DNA from: Alphaproteobacteria bacterium
GTDB lineage: Bacteria > Pseudomonadota > Alphaproteobacteria > Rhodobacterales > Rhodobacteraceae
Assembly (NCBI GenBank): GCA_030431485.1
Contig: JAUIIR010000002.1
Coordinates: 62,001-126,000, forward strand
Direction: 5' to 3'
Length of the DNA: 64,000 nt
The notes below the pieces were generated by a model, which had not been told where the DNA came from, ran no database searches, and worked only from the letters and a program-made list of their open reading frames with translations. This document shows, in pieces, positions 12,739 through 20,734 of the stretch; positions within the stretch are counted from its first letter, which is position 1, and each line of letters starts with the position of its first letter. The position numbers were made by a program, and so were the translations under genes.

Positions 12739-12795
12739 TGGTACGGGCGGTGGGACTCGAACCCACACGGCACTAAGGCCTTCGGATTTTAAGTC
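12739..12795 (-). repeat. att direct repeat (tRNA-Leu 3' fragment), distal end of the integrative element
   Basis: 57-bp identity to 20649-20705, running from the CCA end through the anticodon loop of tRNA-Leu(TAA). Confidence 0.9.
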
Positions 12796-13109: not shown

Positions 13110-13868
13110 ATGATACGACGGATTACTACCACAGGTCTTTTTCTCGGAACCTTTATCATTCCGACGGTAGTGCAGAGCGAACTTGGTTTTGACACACCGC
13201 CCTCGACTAATACAGACGAGCAATACTCAGTTACACAGCCCGATTATGACACTGGAACTGATTTCAAAGAGCCGACAAATGAGTCCAATCCTACTCAGGA
13301 AGGACCAAACCTGCGTGACAACGGTTACGAAGACGATTCTCCCCGTCGAGAACGTGAACAGAATGTTACTACCAACGCAGGGAGTGTGATTTCACCTCTC
13401 AGCCTCGGGATCGACCCAACCGCAGCCATTACACAACGGCTTAACAACGTAGAACGCATCTGTGAGACTATGGGAGATGAATATAAAATTGCTTGTTTCG
13501 CAGTAACTTACAGAGACCTTGCCAGAGCGATCAGACAATCAAAAGGCGATCCCGAAATTGGAAGGACGCTTAGTGAAGCTGCTGATAAACTTGACGCGCT
13601 AGTCCGTCGTAACCTTGATAGCCAGAAACCCGCCTTGCGTGCTCATCTCGACAGCCCAACGGGATCACGTCTCATCACAACTCCACCTATGCATGCAGTC
13701 AAACAGGCCCGAGCTGCGGAAATACAACGACAGGCTGCAAATATTCTGGAGGAGGCCGAAACCGTTCTTCTACGTTCTGCAACCTCAGTCGGGCCAACTC
13801 GATCTCTTTCATTCCAAAGGGTTGCTGCTGCCATTGGCTCTAACAAAGTTCTTTTGAGGTCTTCATGA
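13110..13868 (+). CDS. Secreted hypothetical protein (island-encoded)
   Basis: 252 aa with N-terminal hydrophobic signal MIRRITTTGLFLGTFIIPTVVQS; no family recognised. Confidence 0.6.
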   Translation: MIRRITTTGLFLGTFIIPTVVQSELGFDTPPSTNTDEQYSVTQPDYDTGTDFKEPTNESNPTQEGPNLRDNGYEDDSPRREREQNVTTNAGSVISPLSLGIDPTAAITQRLNNVERICETMGDEYKIACFAVTYRDLARAIRQSKGDPEIGRTLSEAADKLDALVRRNLDSQKPALRAHLDSPTGSRLITTPPMHAVKQARAAEIQRQAANILEEAETVLLRSATSVGPTRSLSFQRVAAAIGSNKVLLRSS

Positions 13869-14686
13869 GCCTTCGGAAAGGTGGAACGCGACACAAATGA
13901 ACAGCTATTGTCACAGGCCAGATGATAGACAGAAGCAGTCTCCCACCCTTGATCCTTGAAATTATGTAAAAGGTCAGAATGAACCAAAGGTGGGTACGCA
14001 TGGGCCACCCGCCCCCTACCTGATGGATGATACTTAGCTACTGACGGTGGTGGGACTCTCAGAGTTGTAAAGTACTTTCGGGGATGAAGAATTGGAATTT
14101 ACATTCAATGTTTGGAATTTGTATTTTCACACAACGGGACGGGTACGAATGCCCCCATCGGCCTAACCGCATGAAATCCAAGCTCAAAGTCGTCAAGCAA
14201 AATTACGCCCCCAGAATCTGTGCATAACGTTGTGGGCAGACCCTTGAGATGAGCGACTAACCAACTGGTTTTTATACACATATCCAGAAGCGATTAAAAA
14301 TTAAGCAAATCCTCAACATATTGATTTTATGAAAGAAATAAGTTCATAATGAAGCAACATCGGGCGTATATGCCTCAAAGTAGTGTCAAGAGTTAGTTTG
14401 AGAGCCGCTGGGGGATAACTTGAATGTTTCAAACGTCAGGTCGACACAACTTCTTAGGCGCAATTTCAGATATTGAGCGGTAAATGAAAGCCCTGACACA
14501 CTCAACGCCTTGACAACACTGCACAAAATCTGTCACTATTCGACTTGCATTTAGAGTGTGAGAAATCACCGCCAACCTTGCTCATGTAAAGGTGGCCTCC
14601 ACGATTAGGTGGGATGCGCCAGACACAACGTCTGGAAACATGGTCGCTCCCTTTTTCAGCGACTTAATTTTAACAAAGGAACTATT

Positions 14687-16834
14687 ATGCAATCAAAGCA
14701 CAACTTTGACGAAAAGTCAACCCCAACCAATCTCCCCAGCGACGAACCAGCATATGTCAGATTGAGATTGAACTCAAAGCAGCCAGAGGAACCGAACTGG
14801 CAAAACAATCCGTTGACGCGGTGGGCAATCGATCAGAACAGTCATAACATCGGTCTACTTTTGGGCAAACGGACCGGACTGGTAGACATAGACTGTGACT
14901 GTTCAGAAGCGGTTCACCTCGCCCAATACCTACTGCCAAAACCCGCACTCCACTTCCAAAGGAATGGGTCTTCCGCGCATTATATTTACCGGTGCAATGA
15001 TGCAGAGGGGACAGTTCAACGGGGTCATAGTAGTACGTTCATCGAGCTACGAGGCACGGGTGGTCAAACGATGATACCGCCCTCGGTCCATCCTGATGGC
15101 GATCAGCTAGAATGGAGCATAATACCCAAACAGTCCGGACCGGTTGCATACGTTGACCTCTTGAAGCTGGTGAACCTGATTGCTGCTGGATGTCTGGTGG
15201 CACAAGAGTATTCGGAGGGAAGCCGTCACTTCATCTCCCTTGGGTTCGCTGGTCTCGTGAGGAAGGCTGGGTTTGATCAAGACACCTGCGAGACAGTGAT
15301 CCAATCGATCTCATCTTGGGCAAATGATGGTGAGGACCGCACACCGAACGTGACGAGCACATATCAACAGAACATCAGTTCAGTATCAGGCTATCACCTT
15401 TTGAAAGACCATCTCGACAAGGCCGCTTTGAACAAAATATGTGACTGGTTTGGGGTTAACCGCGACGTCCCTGCCCTTGACGGAGAAGTTCTGGATGATG
15501 GGGACACAGGACAAATGCCACGGGCAATCACCAGTGACACAATATCCGAGGCGGTTCTTTCCGAAAACTTTGCCCAAGAGATCGAAGGGGCACACTGTTT
15601 TGTTCCGCAGGAAAAGCAATGGCGATACTGGGACGGGAGCCGTTGGATGCCAGATGATCGAAATGTGTTCGGCGCTTCGTTCATGGATTACCTGAAGGCT
15701 CAAAGAGCCAAGACGAACGACTACAGGACACAAGAGGCGCTTCAGAGCTTCGAGACTTGGTATAAAGCGAACAGCGTCGCGAAACTCACACAGGCATCTC
15801 GAGCGGTTGATACTGACCAGTTTGACCAGAAAGATACGCTGTTGAACTGCCCAAACGGTGTTGTCGATCTAAGCAGTAGCGGACTGAAGCGGCACGATCC
15901 CTTCAACTACCTGACCAAACAGACGACGACAGCTTTCGATCCGGAGGCAAGTGCACCAAGGTTTGAGCGGTTTGTTCTAGAAATCTGTGACGGAGACGAA
16001 GACCTTGCGGGTTATCTTCAACGGGTAGCAGGTTATGCACTTGAGGGGGGCAATCCAGAGCAAGTCATGTTCATCCTTCATGGAAATGGAGCCAACGGGA
16101 AATCTACGTTCGTCGAGATTTGCTCAGAAGTTTTGGGAGGTTACGCCAAGACGGCTCCGGCATCTGTTCTCGTGGAAGGGCGATCTGGTGGCGTCGGTGA
16201 CGATCTGGTTTTTCTGAAAGGGGCACGGTGGATCAATGCCAGTGAAACAGGCCAAGGGGCATATTTGGCGGAGAGTAAGCTCAAGCAGATCACCGGGGGT
16301 GACACCACTGCTGGGAGAGCCTTGTATGCTTCTTACCAAGAGTTTCAACTGTCTGGTGTCGTTCTGTTCTCTACGAATCACTTGCCGAGGGTACGAGGAA
16401 CAGACGAGGGGATTTGGCGACGGATGAATGTCATTGAGTTCAAGCGCACCTTCAAAGAGAATGAGAGGGACCCATACTTGAAGGACAGCCTACGGACGGA
16501 GAAATCGGGGATCCTCAACTGGATGCTAGAGGGTCATCGCCGGTACAAGGCTTCAGCACTACAACCACCAGCTTGCGTTCAGGATGCCAACCGGCGGTAT
16601 CGGAAGGATATGGATGTTGTCTCTGCATTTCTGGAGGAATGTTGCGAATTTGCTTCTGAGGCTCGATGCAACCAGACGATTTTGAAGAATGCCTATGAAC
16701 GGTACTGTCAGGATAATGGTCGTTCAGAAGCTTCTTGGAGGGACCTTACGGCAGCACTAGAGGCAAGAGGATTAGCGAAAAAGAAGAGTAATGGTCAACG
16801 CTTTTGGTCAGGTATCAAGCTCACCGAAGGATAA
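14687..16834 (+). CDS. Bifunctional prim-pol primase / P4-D5-type SF3 helicase
   Basis: N-terminal LVDIDCDC and H...FIELRGTGGQTMIPPSVHPDG prim-pol features; helicase GNGANGKSTFVEI, LFSTNHLPRVRGTDEGIWRRMNVIEF; AAAGGA upstream of ATG at 14687. Confidence 0.88.
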   Translation: MQSKHNFDEKSTPTNLPSDEPAYVRLRLNSKQPEEPNWQNNPLTRWAIDQNSHNIGLLLGKRTGLVDIDCDCSEAVHLAQYLLPKPALHFQRNGSSAHYIYRCNDAEGTVQRGHSSTFIELRGTGGQTMIPPSVHPDGDQLEWSIIPKQSGPVAYVDLLKLVNLIAAGCLVAQEYSEGSRHFISLGFAGLVRKAGFDQDTCETVIQSISSWANDGEDRTPNVTSTYQQNISSVSGYHLLKDHLDKAALNKICDWFGVNRDVPALDGEVLDDGDTGQMPRAITSDTISEAVLSENFAQEIEGAHCFVPQEKQWRYWDGSRWMPDDRNVFGASFMDYLKAQRAKTNDYRTQEALQSFETWYKANSVAKLTQASRAVDTDQFDQKDTLLNCPNGVVDLSSSGLKRHDPFNYLTKQTTTAFDPEASAPRFERFVLEICDGDEDLAGYLQRVAGYALEGGNPEQVMFILHGNGANGKSTFVEICSEVLGGYAKTAPASVLVEGRSGGVGDDLVFLKGARWINASETGQGAYLAESKLKQITGGDTTAGRALYASYQEFQLSGVVLFSTNHLPRVRGTDEGIWRRMNVIEFKRTFKENERDPYLKDSLRTEKSGILNWMLEGHRRYKASALQPPACVQDANRRYRKDMDVVSAFLEECCEFASEARCNQTILKNAYERYCQDNGRSEASWRDLTAALEARGLAKKKSNGQRFWSGIKLTEG

Positions 16835-17231: not shown

Positions 17232-18068
17232 TTATGAACGGACAATAAATTTTATAAAGCACTCCGTCGTACCATTAATCATCAAATCTAAAACTTCTTC
17301 AAGAATGCCAAACTTTTGGAAAACCCATAATATTCCATGTTGCCTTTGGTTCCATACGGGGACTAATCTCGTTCTTTTCACAAATTCTAAATTCTTAGCC
17401 GTTCCTGCGTCTCGCCCATTTTTCTCTCCAAACACCAGTATCAACTCTGTTTCTCCCGCAATCATGCAGCTGCAAAGCGGATCGAACGCTGGATGCTGAA
17501 CATCACCTCGAAGACAGCGTATAGTATCGTCAATAGGTGCCCCACCAAATGAAAATCCCTTGGCCAAGTTTGCAAGCCTAGCATAGCGCAACGCAGGTAG
17601 TCCACCTGAACTAGTGCCAACCGAAATAGCGGTTTCATAATGCGCAACCCAATGCCTAAGAGCTTTTGGCAAATCGTAAAGTGAAAGCTCTCCATTTAAT
17701 ATGTTTCTCCTATAGTGATCACGCCACGGATCATATAACACTAATATATCTGTATTTCGTGGCAGCGCCTGTATGAAGATAGGTAATGGCATCATTGGGC
17801 GCATAGCCGCTCCCGTAAAAACTACAAGTAGATTCTCTCTTTTCGTGCTTGGATTAGTGAGTAATCTCGCATATCTTGTATCAGCCTCGCATCTGATTTG
17901 TGACGGCACTCGGGCCCCATTTAGCACGCCAACGGTTTCCGACCTTTCCAGAACTTCCAAAAATCCGAAATTCTTCTGACGCTTTACATCGTCGTAAGCG
18001 GACAAAAACTCTAAAGGAGTAGAGAATGTCTCCAATTGACGCAGCCGTTGAAATAGCTCCCTGTCCAT
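17232..18068 (-). CDS. Alpha/beta-hydrolase-fold protein (putative thioesterase/esterase) in the P450-ACP operon
   Basis: Nucleophile elbow VGTSSGG, downstream FGEKNGRDA and NQRQHG as candidate Asp and His; 19 bp after the ACP gene. Confidence 0.65.
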   Translation of the reverse strand: MDRELFQRLRQLETFSTPLEFLSAYDDVKRQKNFGFLEVLERSETVGVLNGARVPSQIRCEADTRYARLLTNPSTKRENLLVVFTGAAMRPMMPLPIFIQALPRNTDILVLYDPWRDHYRRNILNGELSLYDLPKALRHWVAHYETAISVGTSSGGLPALRYARLANLAKGFSFGGAPIDDTIRCLRGDVQHPAFDPLCSCMIAGETELILVFGEKNGRDAGTAKNLEFVKRTRLVPVWNQRQHGILWVFQKFGILEEVLDLMINGTTECFIKFIVRS

Positions 18069-18087
18069 TTAGGTCTTTCACAAAAAT

Positions 18088-18369
18088 TCACTGATGCAAG
18101 ATAGAAGATTCGATGTTCATCAAAAGCTCGGAAAAAGTTTGAGATGACAAAACTATACTTGGCTCCAAGTCCACCTCAAGAGCATCCTCTATTTGCATAA
18201 TAACCTCGTATGAAGACAAACTGTCTAAGTCTAGCTCTAGCAAATCAAAATCCTGATCAGAGTTTAATTTTTTAACCAAAGAAGACCGCTCCATGAGCCC
18301 GCATGTCTTGTCAAGAGCCATGATGACTGCATCCCTTACATTCATTGGACGAAAAACTCCCTGCTTCAT
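18088..18369 (-). CDS. Acyl carrier protein
   Basis: 93 aa with LLELDLDSLSSYEVIMQIEDALEVDLEPS, DSL phosphopantetheine site. Confidence 0.85.
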   Translation of the reverse strand: MKQGVFRPMNVRDAVIMALDKTCGLMERSSLVKKLNSDQDFDLLELDLDSLSSYEVIMQIEDALEVDLEPSIVLSSQTFSELLMNIESSILHQ

Positions 18370-19343
18370 TTCTTCTGAACAACAAATACCTTAGGCATAT
18401 CAAACACGTCATGCTTTAACAATTCAAATTCTACTGGCACCAAACTACAATCTAAGCCGGTCAACTTTTCACAGAAGACCGATATGAAGTCTAAAGCCAA
18501 GGTCCGACCCAAACACACATGGCTGCCAGCACCAAAGAAGTGACGGCGTAGTTGCTCTGGAGCATGGGTGAGTGTATCTAAACGACATTCGATTAATGCC
18601 CCGGAAGAAACTGGACATCCTGTAATAGTATTGTCATTCTTTGCAACACGGCCGATTGCAGGGATGCTGGTATGGGTTGGCATCACAGGCAGACCTTTAG
18701 AATTTAAGTTCCTGCCGTTGAGATCAGCCAAGAAGTGATACAGTGATAAACAAAGCATTCCCACAAGCGCATCTCTACCCATCGTCCATTGACCAATACG
18801 AATCATACGCTGCCGATCTGATTCACTAGGAAACAAAATACCCAGTAATGCGATTTGTTCACGCAACACGGATTCCAACCGAAGGCGCGCAGAAACCCCT
18901 AAATTTGAGCTAAATATACTAGGCATATCTGCAAGAGATTTTGCACTTGGCGGAACACCTGTAATCTCATACATGAAAGTATCTACTGAGCATCGGACAA
19001 CTTCTAATAAATCAATTTGGGGGTTAGAAAATTTTTCATTAATTATATTACCGATTCTTCCGGAAGTTCGCTTTAACTTATGACTTGAATCTTCATTTAA
19101 AAATTTAGCGGTCTCCCGTCGCAAATCGCTGTGTTCTTTTTCATCAGCCCATAGGGGCAATACTCGCATAACAGAAAGAGTTGCAGATAAATCAATGCAC
19201 AATCTTTCTGACAGAGATTCAACAAACCGGATATGGTTGGTTGTGGAAAAATTATTATCGGCCAACACTGAAACTGCGGCACTACCACCAATTACAAGGT
19301 CGGGGACAGCAGGGTATCCTCGCGGCGCAAGTCGATTAAACAT
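18366..19343 (-). CDS. Compact cytochrome P450 (about 325 aa)
   Basis: Heme-ligand signature FFGAGSHVCLGRTLALDF; HSDLRRETAKFL C-helix-like motif; ATGA overlap with ACP. ORF track start is 19364; 19343 (MFNRLAPRG) preferred. Confidence 0.85.
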   Translation of the reverse strand: MFNRLAPRGYPAVPDLVIGGSAAVSVLADNNFSTTNHIRFVESLSERLCIDLSATLSVMRVLPLWADEKEHSDLRRETAKFLNEDSSHKLKRTSGRIGNIINEKFSNPQIDLLEVVRCSVDTFMYEITGVPPSAKSLADMPSIFSSNLGVSARLRLESVLREQIALLGILFPSESDRQRMIRIGQWTMGRDALVGMLCLSLYHFLADLNGRNLNSKGLPVMPTHTSIPAIGRVAKNDNTITGCPVSSGALIECRLDTLTHAPEQLRRHFFGAGSHVCLGRTLALDFISVFCEKLTGLDCSLVPVEFELLKHDVFDMPKVFVVQKK

Positions 19344-19375
19344 AATAATTCTCCAAACATCCATCCCACGCTTAC

Positions 19376-19493: not shown

Positions 19494-20591
19494 CTAAACC
19501 AAGGTCCCGCCTAGCCATTCGCGCACTTTATCCAACGAGTAGCCATGCCCGTATCCTACGCCAACGCCACCAACAGACTTCCACCCACCGATCTGGTCAA
19601 TCAGCTCTGAAGGACACTCCACAGCCCTTAGTCGGTCCCTCATGGAGTGCCTGAGGCAATGTCCCGTCAGTCCATCAAAGTCCTGTTTCAACCACTTGTT
19701 CAGCGCGTTTGACGCGTGTGTGGCCTTGCAAGTGCCATCCTTGATGTATCGTGGAAACAACCATTCACCATCTGATTGCCGTACCGCCATCTCCATGGCC
19801 AGCTTGGCGTATCCCATAAGAGGAAGCGTCCGTATCGAGTTTGGTGTCTTCAACCGTCTGGCCGTATTCGGACGAATGTGAATCAAGTCTCGCTCAAGGT
19901 CGATATCTTCCAACCTCAAACCCACAATCTCTGCCAACCGACATCCAGTCTCCCCCAACAATGGCATCAGGAGCTTCACAGTGCTGCCAGAGGACAGAGC
20001 CTTGTCGTATCCCTGTTTGAGTTGGTCATTGGTGAAAGTGCCTCTCTTGTGCTTATCTTCGCCCTCACCTTGGATCATCAACCGGGTGAAAGGGTTCCGC
20101 TTTTCCAGATCAAGTTCTGAGTACGCATAGTTCAGGATAGCTGACAGGCTGTTGAGTCTTCGTCTTATCGTGGCTGTCTTGTTACCCTTGAGGACCATGT
20201 GACGGACGAACATCTTGGCATCTTCACGGGTATAACCGCTCACCTCCCTGTCACCAGCCAACATAAGGAATGTATTGAGAGCTACCCGTGGTGGTTTCTG
20301 GTCAATCTTCCTCAGGGAAAGGTATTCCTCTGCCATCTCTGACAGCGTGACCGACCTTGGTTTGAAACTCTCGACCACTGCCACAACGTCAACTGGTGCT
20401 TTACATGTGCCATGACTCCATGAGGCCTCAAGAACATTACTCAGACGTTCCGCATAGGCTTGGGCTTCATCTGGGTCTTTGGACAGGGCTTGCCGAATGT
20501 ATGACCCGTAGATTCCAACCGCATGTTTGGGCACACGACGATTATAGAAATAGGTCCCTGAACGGCAGATTGTGTACTGAATGTGTGACAC
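19494..20591 (-). CDS. Tyrosine recombinase / phage-type integrase
   Basis: GETGCRLAEIVGLRLEDIDL, HCLRHSMRDRL, GYGHGYSLDKVREWL (R...HxxR...Y); adjacent to tRNA-Leu. Confidence 0.93.
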   Translation of the reverse strand: MSHIQYTICRSGTYFYNRRVPKHAVGIYGSYIRQALSKDPDEAQAYAERLSNVLEASWSHGTCKAPVDVVAVVESFKPRSVTLSEMAEEYLSLRKIDQKPPRVALNTFLMLAGDREVSGYTREDAKMFVRHMVLKGNKTATIRRRLNSLSAILNYAYSELDLEKRNPFTRLMIQGEGEDKHKRGTFTNDQLKQGYDKALSSGSTVKLLMPLLGETGCRLAEIVGLRLEDIDLERDLIHIRPNTARRLKTPNSIRTLPLMGYAKLAMEMAVRQSDGEWLFPRYIKDGTCKATHASNALNKWLKQDFDGLTGHCLRHSMRDRLRAVECPSELIDQIGGWKSVGGVGVGYGHGYSLDKVREWLGGTLV

Positions 20592-20648: not shown

Positions 20649-20705
20649 TGGTACGGGCGGTGGGACTCGAACCCACACGGCACTAAGGCCTTCGGATTTT
20701 AAGTC
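20649..20705 (-). repeat. att direct repeat inside the intact tRNA-Leu
   Basis: 57-bp identity to 12739-12795. Confidence 0.9.
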
Positions 20706-20734
20706 CGATATGTCTACCATTCCATCACGCCCGC
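20649..20734 (-). tRNA. tRNA-Leu (anticodon TAA)
   Basis: Reverse complement GCGGGCGTGATGGAATGGTAGACATATCGGACTTAAAATCCGA...GGTTCGAGTCCCACCGCCCGTACCA; 86 nt with long variable arm and encoded CCA. Confidence 0.95.

Follow-up and report, generated by a model that had tools for sequence, protein, structure and literature searches.

In nikkomycin-type systems, a canonical cytochrome P450 is paired with a carrier that is accompanied by an adenylation domain, and the product is released by a dedicated thioesterase (TE). NikQ is a P450 whose substrate is His bound to a PCP (cited in PMC3943440). The polyoxypeptin A cluster contains contiguous genes, plyQ-plyR-plyS, for a free-standing PCP, a NikQ-like P450, and a TE, which have been proposed to load, β-hydroxylate, and release an amino acid; the loader proposed for this carrier is the discrete adenylation domain PlyC, and both plyQ and plyS are essential for polyoxypeptin formation (PMC3943440). 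P450BioI oxidizes ACP-bound fatty acids (PMC10741444), and the glycopeptide Oxy P450s act on PCP-bound peptides, being recruited by a condensation-like X-domain (PMC9023744). P450s of the CYP157 family lack an intact K-helix ExxR motif (PMC3599690), which shows that this motif is not absolute.

Here, we analyzed a 64,000-nucleotide stretch of a Rhodobacteraceae genome (“the window”), which contains a trio of genes encoding a compact P450-like protein, a stand-alone acyl carrier protein (ACP), and an α/β-hydrolase-fold protein. A sequence-only reading of this DNA had held that no system with this exact trio had been described, a claim that has to be corrected, as plyQ-plyR-plyS is a contiguous trio that has been described and for which the same logic was proposed (PMC3943440). 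The two loci are alike in placing a carrier, a P450, and a hydrolase or TE side by side, and the locus related to ours in Thalassobium even has a PF00975 TE. However, plyQ-plyR-plyS lies in a 75-kb NRPS/PKS cluster of Streptomyces, has a different gene order, and encodes a full-length P450 of 415 aa, whereas the window P450 has about 325 aa; moreover, the Ply and NikQ systems both have an adenylation domain, whereas none was found near the window trio, which stands by itself. As for NikQ, the substrate of the window P450 is proposed to be tethered to a carrier.

P450BioI (CYP107H1; ACP complexes PDB 3EJB/3EJD/3EJE) is among the closest folds to the window P450 but is a canonical protein of about 400 aa, which functions in biotin synthesis in Bacillus; to our knowledge, it has no dedicated ACP-hydrolase cassette. 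Among the Oxy P450s (OxyA/B/C), kistamicin OxyA is the best PDB profile match of the compact P450 family, but these enzymes are of canonical length and catalyze aromatic cross-linking as part of giant NRPS pathways. CYP157 keeps the K-helix sequence and has only the Arg changed (EVLW), whereas the stretch after the I-helix of the window P450 is predicted to be nonhelical; the genomic context of CYP157, in conservons, differs as well. By analogy, the trio would work like the PlyQRS/NikQ, BioI, and Oxy systems, but it belongs to none of them. A search of the open PMC literature for a paper describing a P450–ACP–hydrolase trio found none. What is new here is a loader-free, stand-alone trio with a compact P450, whereas the load–oxidize–release logic has precedents in NikQ and plyQ-plyR-plyS.

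The trio and its tRNA-Leu element

The trio lies within an 8-kb element that is flanked by a perfect 57-bp direct repeat (12739–12795 and 20649–20705). The features of the trio and of the element are as follows:

12739–12795: distal attachment site, where the 3′ part of tRNA-Leu is perfectly repeated over 57 bp
13110–13868, plus strand: element protein of 252 aa, N-terminus resembling a signal peptide, not assigned to any family; context
14609–16834, plus strand: P4-family primase/helicase of the element (Prim-Pol, D5_N); context
17232–18068, minus strand: α/β-hydrolase-fold protein, 278 aa, a probable off-loading thioesterase/esterase
18088–18369, minus strand: stand-alone ACP, 93 aa (PF00550)
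18366–19343, minus strand: P450-like protein, 325 aa from the ATG used in the sequence-only reading
19494–20591, minus strand: tyrosine integrase of the element (DUF6538 and Phage_integrase); context, outside the trio
20649–20705: proximal attachment site inside tRNA-Leu(TAA), comprising its 3′ part
20649–20734, minus strand: tRNA-Leu (TAA), the integration target

The observation of a P450–ACP–hydrolase trio in the window was confirmed. The open reading frame check showed three intact minus-strand frames spanning 17232–19343, in agreement with the earlier description of three tightly spaced minus-strand genes, and the ATGA overlap between the P450 and ACP genes and the 19-bp gap between the ACP and hydrolase genes were reproduced upon remeasurement. 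The motifs FFGAGSHVCLG (P450), DLDSLS (ACP), and VGTSSGG (hydrolase) are all present, and the trio is indeed AT-rich, with a GC content of 43% versus 59% outside the element. An in-frame ATG further upstream, at 19364, would give a P450-like protein of 332 aa; the shorter start is favored by the N-terminus of the Marivita homologue (MLNRLKPRGYP...).

The trio had also been placed in a tRNA-inserted element with a primase and an integrase, and the 57-bp repeat, the P4-type primase, and the tyrosine integrase bear this out. In the window genome, a tRNA-Leu integrative element has acquired the trio. We looked for related elements with the same primase and other cargo at the same spot, and this idea was dropped: only distant primases (approximately 35%) in unrelated surroundings were obtained. 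One of these distant relatives of the element primase is encoded on a 7.5-kb contig (L059), which is possibly a small plasmid or another element.

Properties of the three proteins

The window P450-like protein scores 12.8 bits against PF00067, below the gathering cut-off of 22.8 bits, and the best score among the homologues tested (19.6 bits) is still below this value. As a single sequence, it has no significant relative among the PDB sequences. A profile built from eleven homologues, on the other hand, matches solved P450s, with kistamicin OxyA structures as the best match (E = 1.2e-11). The AF2 model, based on 16 homologues, shows a P450 fold (pLDDT 86.7, pTM 0.86). Foldseek searches with this model gave an E-value of 1.4e-10 and 1339 PDB chains at E ≤ 0.001, and the top matches, among those listed, are all P450s. 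The closest folds include the ACP-bound BioI structures 3ejb and 3ejd, with TM values of up to 0.75, but since Foldseek also returns many P450s that do not act on carriers, the likeness to BioI and Oxy is suggestive only.

Members of this family have a length of about 315–350 aa. The heme-Cys loop (FxxGxxxCxG) is present in all 20 homologues inspected, the C-helix HxxxR is found in 19 of the 20 by the pattern used, and the β-strand Arg is retained. The AF2 model has no K-helix after the I-helix, this stretch being predicted to be nonhelical, and ExxR does not occur at the K-helix position in any of the 20 sequences; two pattern matches were found elsewhere in the segment. The acid–alcohol pair of the I-helix is lacking as well, in that the acid is kept in most homologues, whereas Ala, Pro, or Gly stands in place of the Thr. 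The description of this P450 as “intact” thus applies to the Cys loop, FFGAGSHVCLG, and not to the ExxR motif or the I-helix Thr. As these last two features are missing, classical monooxygenase catalysis is not assured. With the I-helix acid mostly kept but the Thr lost, the substrate itself may assist proton delivery, as in P450eryF. The protein is predicted to have a cytochrome P450 fold with a conserved Cys and to be a divergent and unusually small member of this fold.

The ACP belongs to PF00550 (31.6 bits, with a cut-off of 20.8; E = 2e-7), and its profile matches solved ACPs with an E-value of 4e-12. The phosphopantetheine Ser, Ser50 in DLDSLS, is invariant in 12 homologues. The protein resembles type II fatty acid ACPs, and the host genome contains two PF01648 (PPTase-family) genes.

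The hydrolase matched no family in Pfam or NCBIfam, including no named thioesterase family. Its GxSxG elbow is present, and Ser153, Asp220, and His244 are invariant in the family. The AF2 model (pLDDT 88.6, pTM 0.88) retrieved α/β hydrolases in Foldseek with an E-value of 2.5e-7 and modest TM-scores of about 0.45. The P450 fold was predicted with confidence, and an α/β-hydrolase fold was predicted for the third protein, in line with the sequence-only reading. Sequence conservation and the model point to a probable off-loading thioesterase or esterase, its thioesterase activity being putative. An FDPLCxC-type motif, Asp196–Cys201, is also conserved in the hydrolase family and could be a metal site, a disulfide, or part of a lid.

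The P450 and the hydrolase were identified from family profiles and predicted folds, because their Pfam matches are below threshold and absent, respectively. Standard annotation misses the trio for the same reason, as the P450 does not reach the Pfam cut-off and the hydrolase has no family.

Recurrence, context, and the exchangeable third gene

Besides the window, 16 distinct alphaproteobacterial genomes, counted after removal of duplicates between two genome searches, carry the P450–ACP–hydrolase genes in the same order, overlapping or abutting. The P450 is intact in 15 of these and has an apparent frame break in the sixteenth (G738). A lack of joint conservation in other genomes had been named beforehand as an outcome that would speak against the trio; the outcome was the opposite, and because the three families recur in unchanged order in these genomes, the trio is more than a chance arrangement. 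Prevalence figures here all refer to samples of genomes. Among 396 other genomes drawn from the same family, there were 12 matches, 11 to the compact family and one to a canonical P450. When 85,488 species were scanned, each represented by a single genome, 15 loci were obtained, in named hosts that include Gemmobacter, Frigidibacter, Citreimonas, Seohaeicola, Cypionkella, Thalassobium, and Marivita. The compact family was not found in a phylum-level draw, where the single non-self match was a partial hit to a canonical-length P450. The canonical-length P450s that had been drawn in by the profile (L013/L025, L044, L045, and L047) were set aside. Searches of phage records, plasmid records, and viral contigs found no homologues of the P450 or the hydrolase.

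Protein distances within the trio are correlated (P450–ACP, 0.85; P450–hydrolase, 0.87; ACP–hydrolase, 0.77), in each case above all 2000 permutations, and indicate that the three proteins share one history. Comparison of the window with the Marivita copy (78–80% identity) gave dN/dS values of 0.157, 0.185, and 0.137 for the P450, ACP, and hydrolase genes, respectively, which indicates that the genes are under purifying selection.

The contig from Marivita (L039) has both the primase end of the element and the trio in common with the window; because these match at 80–85% nucleotide identity, the two share this part of the element, and the Marivita trio is probably element-borne too. Near the other trios, neither the integrase nor the primase of the element is matched, and their GC content is mostly host-like (trio minus surroundings, mean −1.4 points; Wilcoxon P = 0.11). 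For these two reasons, a satellite or defense island is rejected as the general context, and the earlier description as satellite cargo is not supported for the trio as such. The flanks in the relatives, judged from N-terminal translations, presumably include core genes, for example glnA/glnB, gcvP/gcvH, rpsB/tsf, ruvB/ruvC, and truA. A tRNA gene lies within about 400 bp at five of 19 other loci, which exceeds a rough expectation (P about 4e-4) that assumes 45 tRNAs per 4 Mb, the distance having been chosen after seeing the data. At one locus, a tRNA-Leu(TAA), the isoacceptor used by the window element, is located 65 bp from the trio (L022:9365–9450), with no integrase or primase match nearby. 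As had been noted for the window, no loading enzyme, PPTase, or redox partner is linked to the trio; contexts of about 20 kb, which cover linked genes only, revealed no conserved fourth gene (loader, PPTase, or ferredoxin) near the other trios and no broadly shared neighbor.

Five further loci keep the P450–ACP pair and lack the hydrolase. The third gene encodes a PF00975 thioesterase in the Thalassobium locus (E = 5.6e-14), and a Bradyrhizobium bin (L036:7874–9514) has, directly after the compact P450, an ACP with a fused NRPS Condensation domain (E = 4.7e-70), the two genes making up a stand-alone unit. In the remaining three (L024:10618–11496, L040:6052–6885, and L043:711–1742), the hydrolase is replaced by a common unnamed family, within which L024 and L040 are related by blastp (E = 1e-9), whereas L043 is joined by alignment only (25% identity). 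This family has no significant match in Pfam, NCBIfam, or PDB sequences, and assignment as an LpxL-like acyltransferase was unsupported by hhalign, PDB, Pfam, and NCBIfam. The P450 gene of L024 has a frame break, and in L043 the ACP gene precedes the P450 gene. Such swaps fit a P450–ACP core with an exchangeable off-loading step, although what these sequences suggest about off-loading is limited by the fact that three of the five replacement genes belong to the unnamed family.

Proposed function and alternatives

We consider it fairly probable, from the sequence comparisons and models, that the trio is a self-contained three-gene tailoring cassette in which a substrate would be tethered on the ACP, oxidized, and released. 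A phosphopantetheinyl transferase of the host would turn the carrier into holo-ACP, which could then be charged with an acyl or aminoacyl group drawn from host pools. The compact P450 would dock on the ACP and oxidize the tethered substrate, by hydroxylation, desaturation, or C–C cleavage, with electrons coming from host ferredoxin or from peroxide. Finally, the hydrolase would cut the thioester, so that the oxidized acid may be released or passed to an acceptor; this step is suggested because the Ser–Asp–His triad is intact and homologous loci substitute other thioester-acting enzymes. The reading as a whole rests mainly on the fact that both identified replacements act on carrier-bound thioesters. 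The product is probably a small acid that is oxidized on the carrier.

Loss of the ExxR motif and the I-helix Thr, together with the Pfam score below the cut-off, could also suit a P450-like protein that has become a structural or activator protein, leaving the chemistry to the ACP and the hydrolase, and a homologue weakly matches TIGR04515 (6.7e-6). The P450-derived glycosyltransferase activators of TIGR04515 have lost the heme Cys and have a partner glycosyltransferase. In contrast, all 20 homologues of the window protein have the Cys loop, in addition to the C-helix HxxxR and the β-strand Arg in the family, and no glycosyltransferase was recognized beside the trios, so that we regard an activator role as quite improbable. 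Fatty acid turnover or editing, where a housekeeping-type thioesterase would clear a dedicated ACP while the P450 oxidizes free fatty acids, is unlikely. It would agree with the resemblance to type II fatty acid ACPs, with a hydrolase that could be an editing TE, and with a loading enzyme that is not linked, but the P450 and the ACP form the constant pair and the third gene varies, which is the opposite of what is expected for an ACP-independent P450.

We give little credence to an anti-phage or interbacterial competition system spread by satellites, even though an element carries the trio in the window and probably also in Marivita, a tRNA gene is close by (about 400 bp) at five of the 19 other loci, and the distribution is patchy (11 of 396 family genomes). 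PADLOC gave no credible match, only a weak and probably spurious one to a methyltransferase (E = 0.0043), and phage and plasmid records and viral scans yielded no homologues of the P450 or the hydrolase; at the other loci, the neighboring genes appear to be unrelated core genes with the GC content of the host, and the tRNA-proximity statistic rests on an assumed tRNA density and a post hoc distance. The fold similarity to BioI–ACP complexes brings to mind a BioI-like route to pimelate and biotin, with the P450 cleaving acyl-ACP and the hydrolase processing the product. This is highly improbable, since no biotin genes were recognized nearby, no neighbors are conserved, and a condensation domain can occupy the third position; in addition, alphaproteobacteria are reported to make pimeloyl-ACP with BioZ (PMC7645780).

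Tethering, oxidation, and release on the ACP, as already proposed in the sequence-only reading, would hence be the most likely logic of the trio, as suggested by the co-inherited genes, the catalytic triad, and the exchangeable third gene. A wider idea, which we put forward as possible rather than probable, is that a new structural class of minimal P450s, with a core of about 300 residues and no K-helix or ExxR, may serve a stand-alone ACP and form with it a loader-free cassette that draws on the host acyl pool and makes an oxidized acyl signal or toxin, the form of the product being set by a swappable off-loader (hydrolysis, condensation, or transfer).

If the proposed reading is true, carrier-tethered P450 chemistry need not be part of an NRPS or PKS cluster but can be encoded by a three-gene unit, and a P450 can function without the K-helix salt bridge that is taught as near-universal. 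The trio would also be a small expressible system for studies of P450–ACP recognition, and the variation of its third gene would provide a natural experiment in the swapping of release enzymes.
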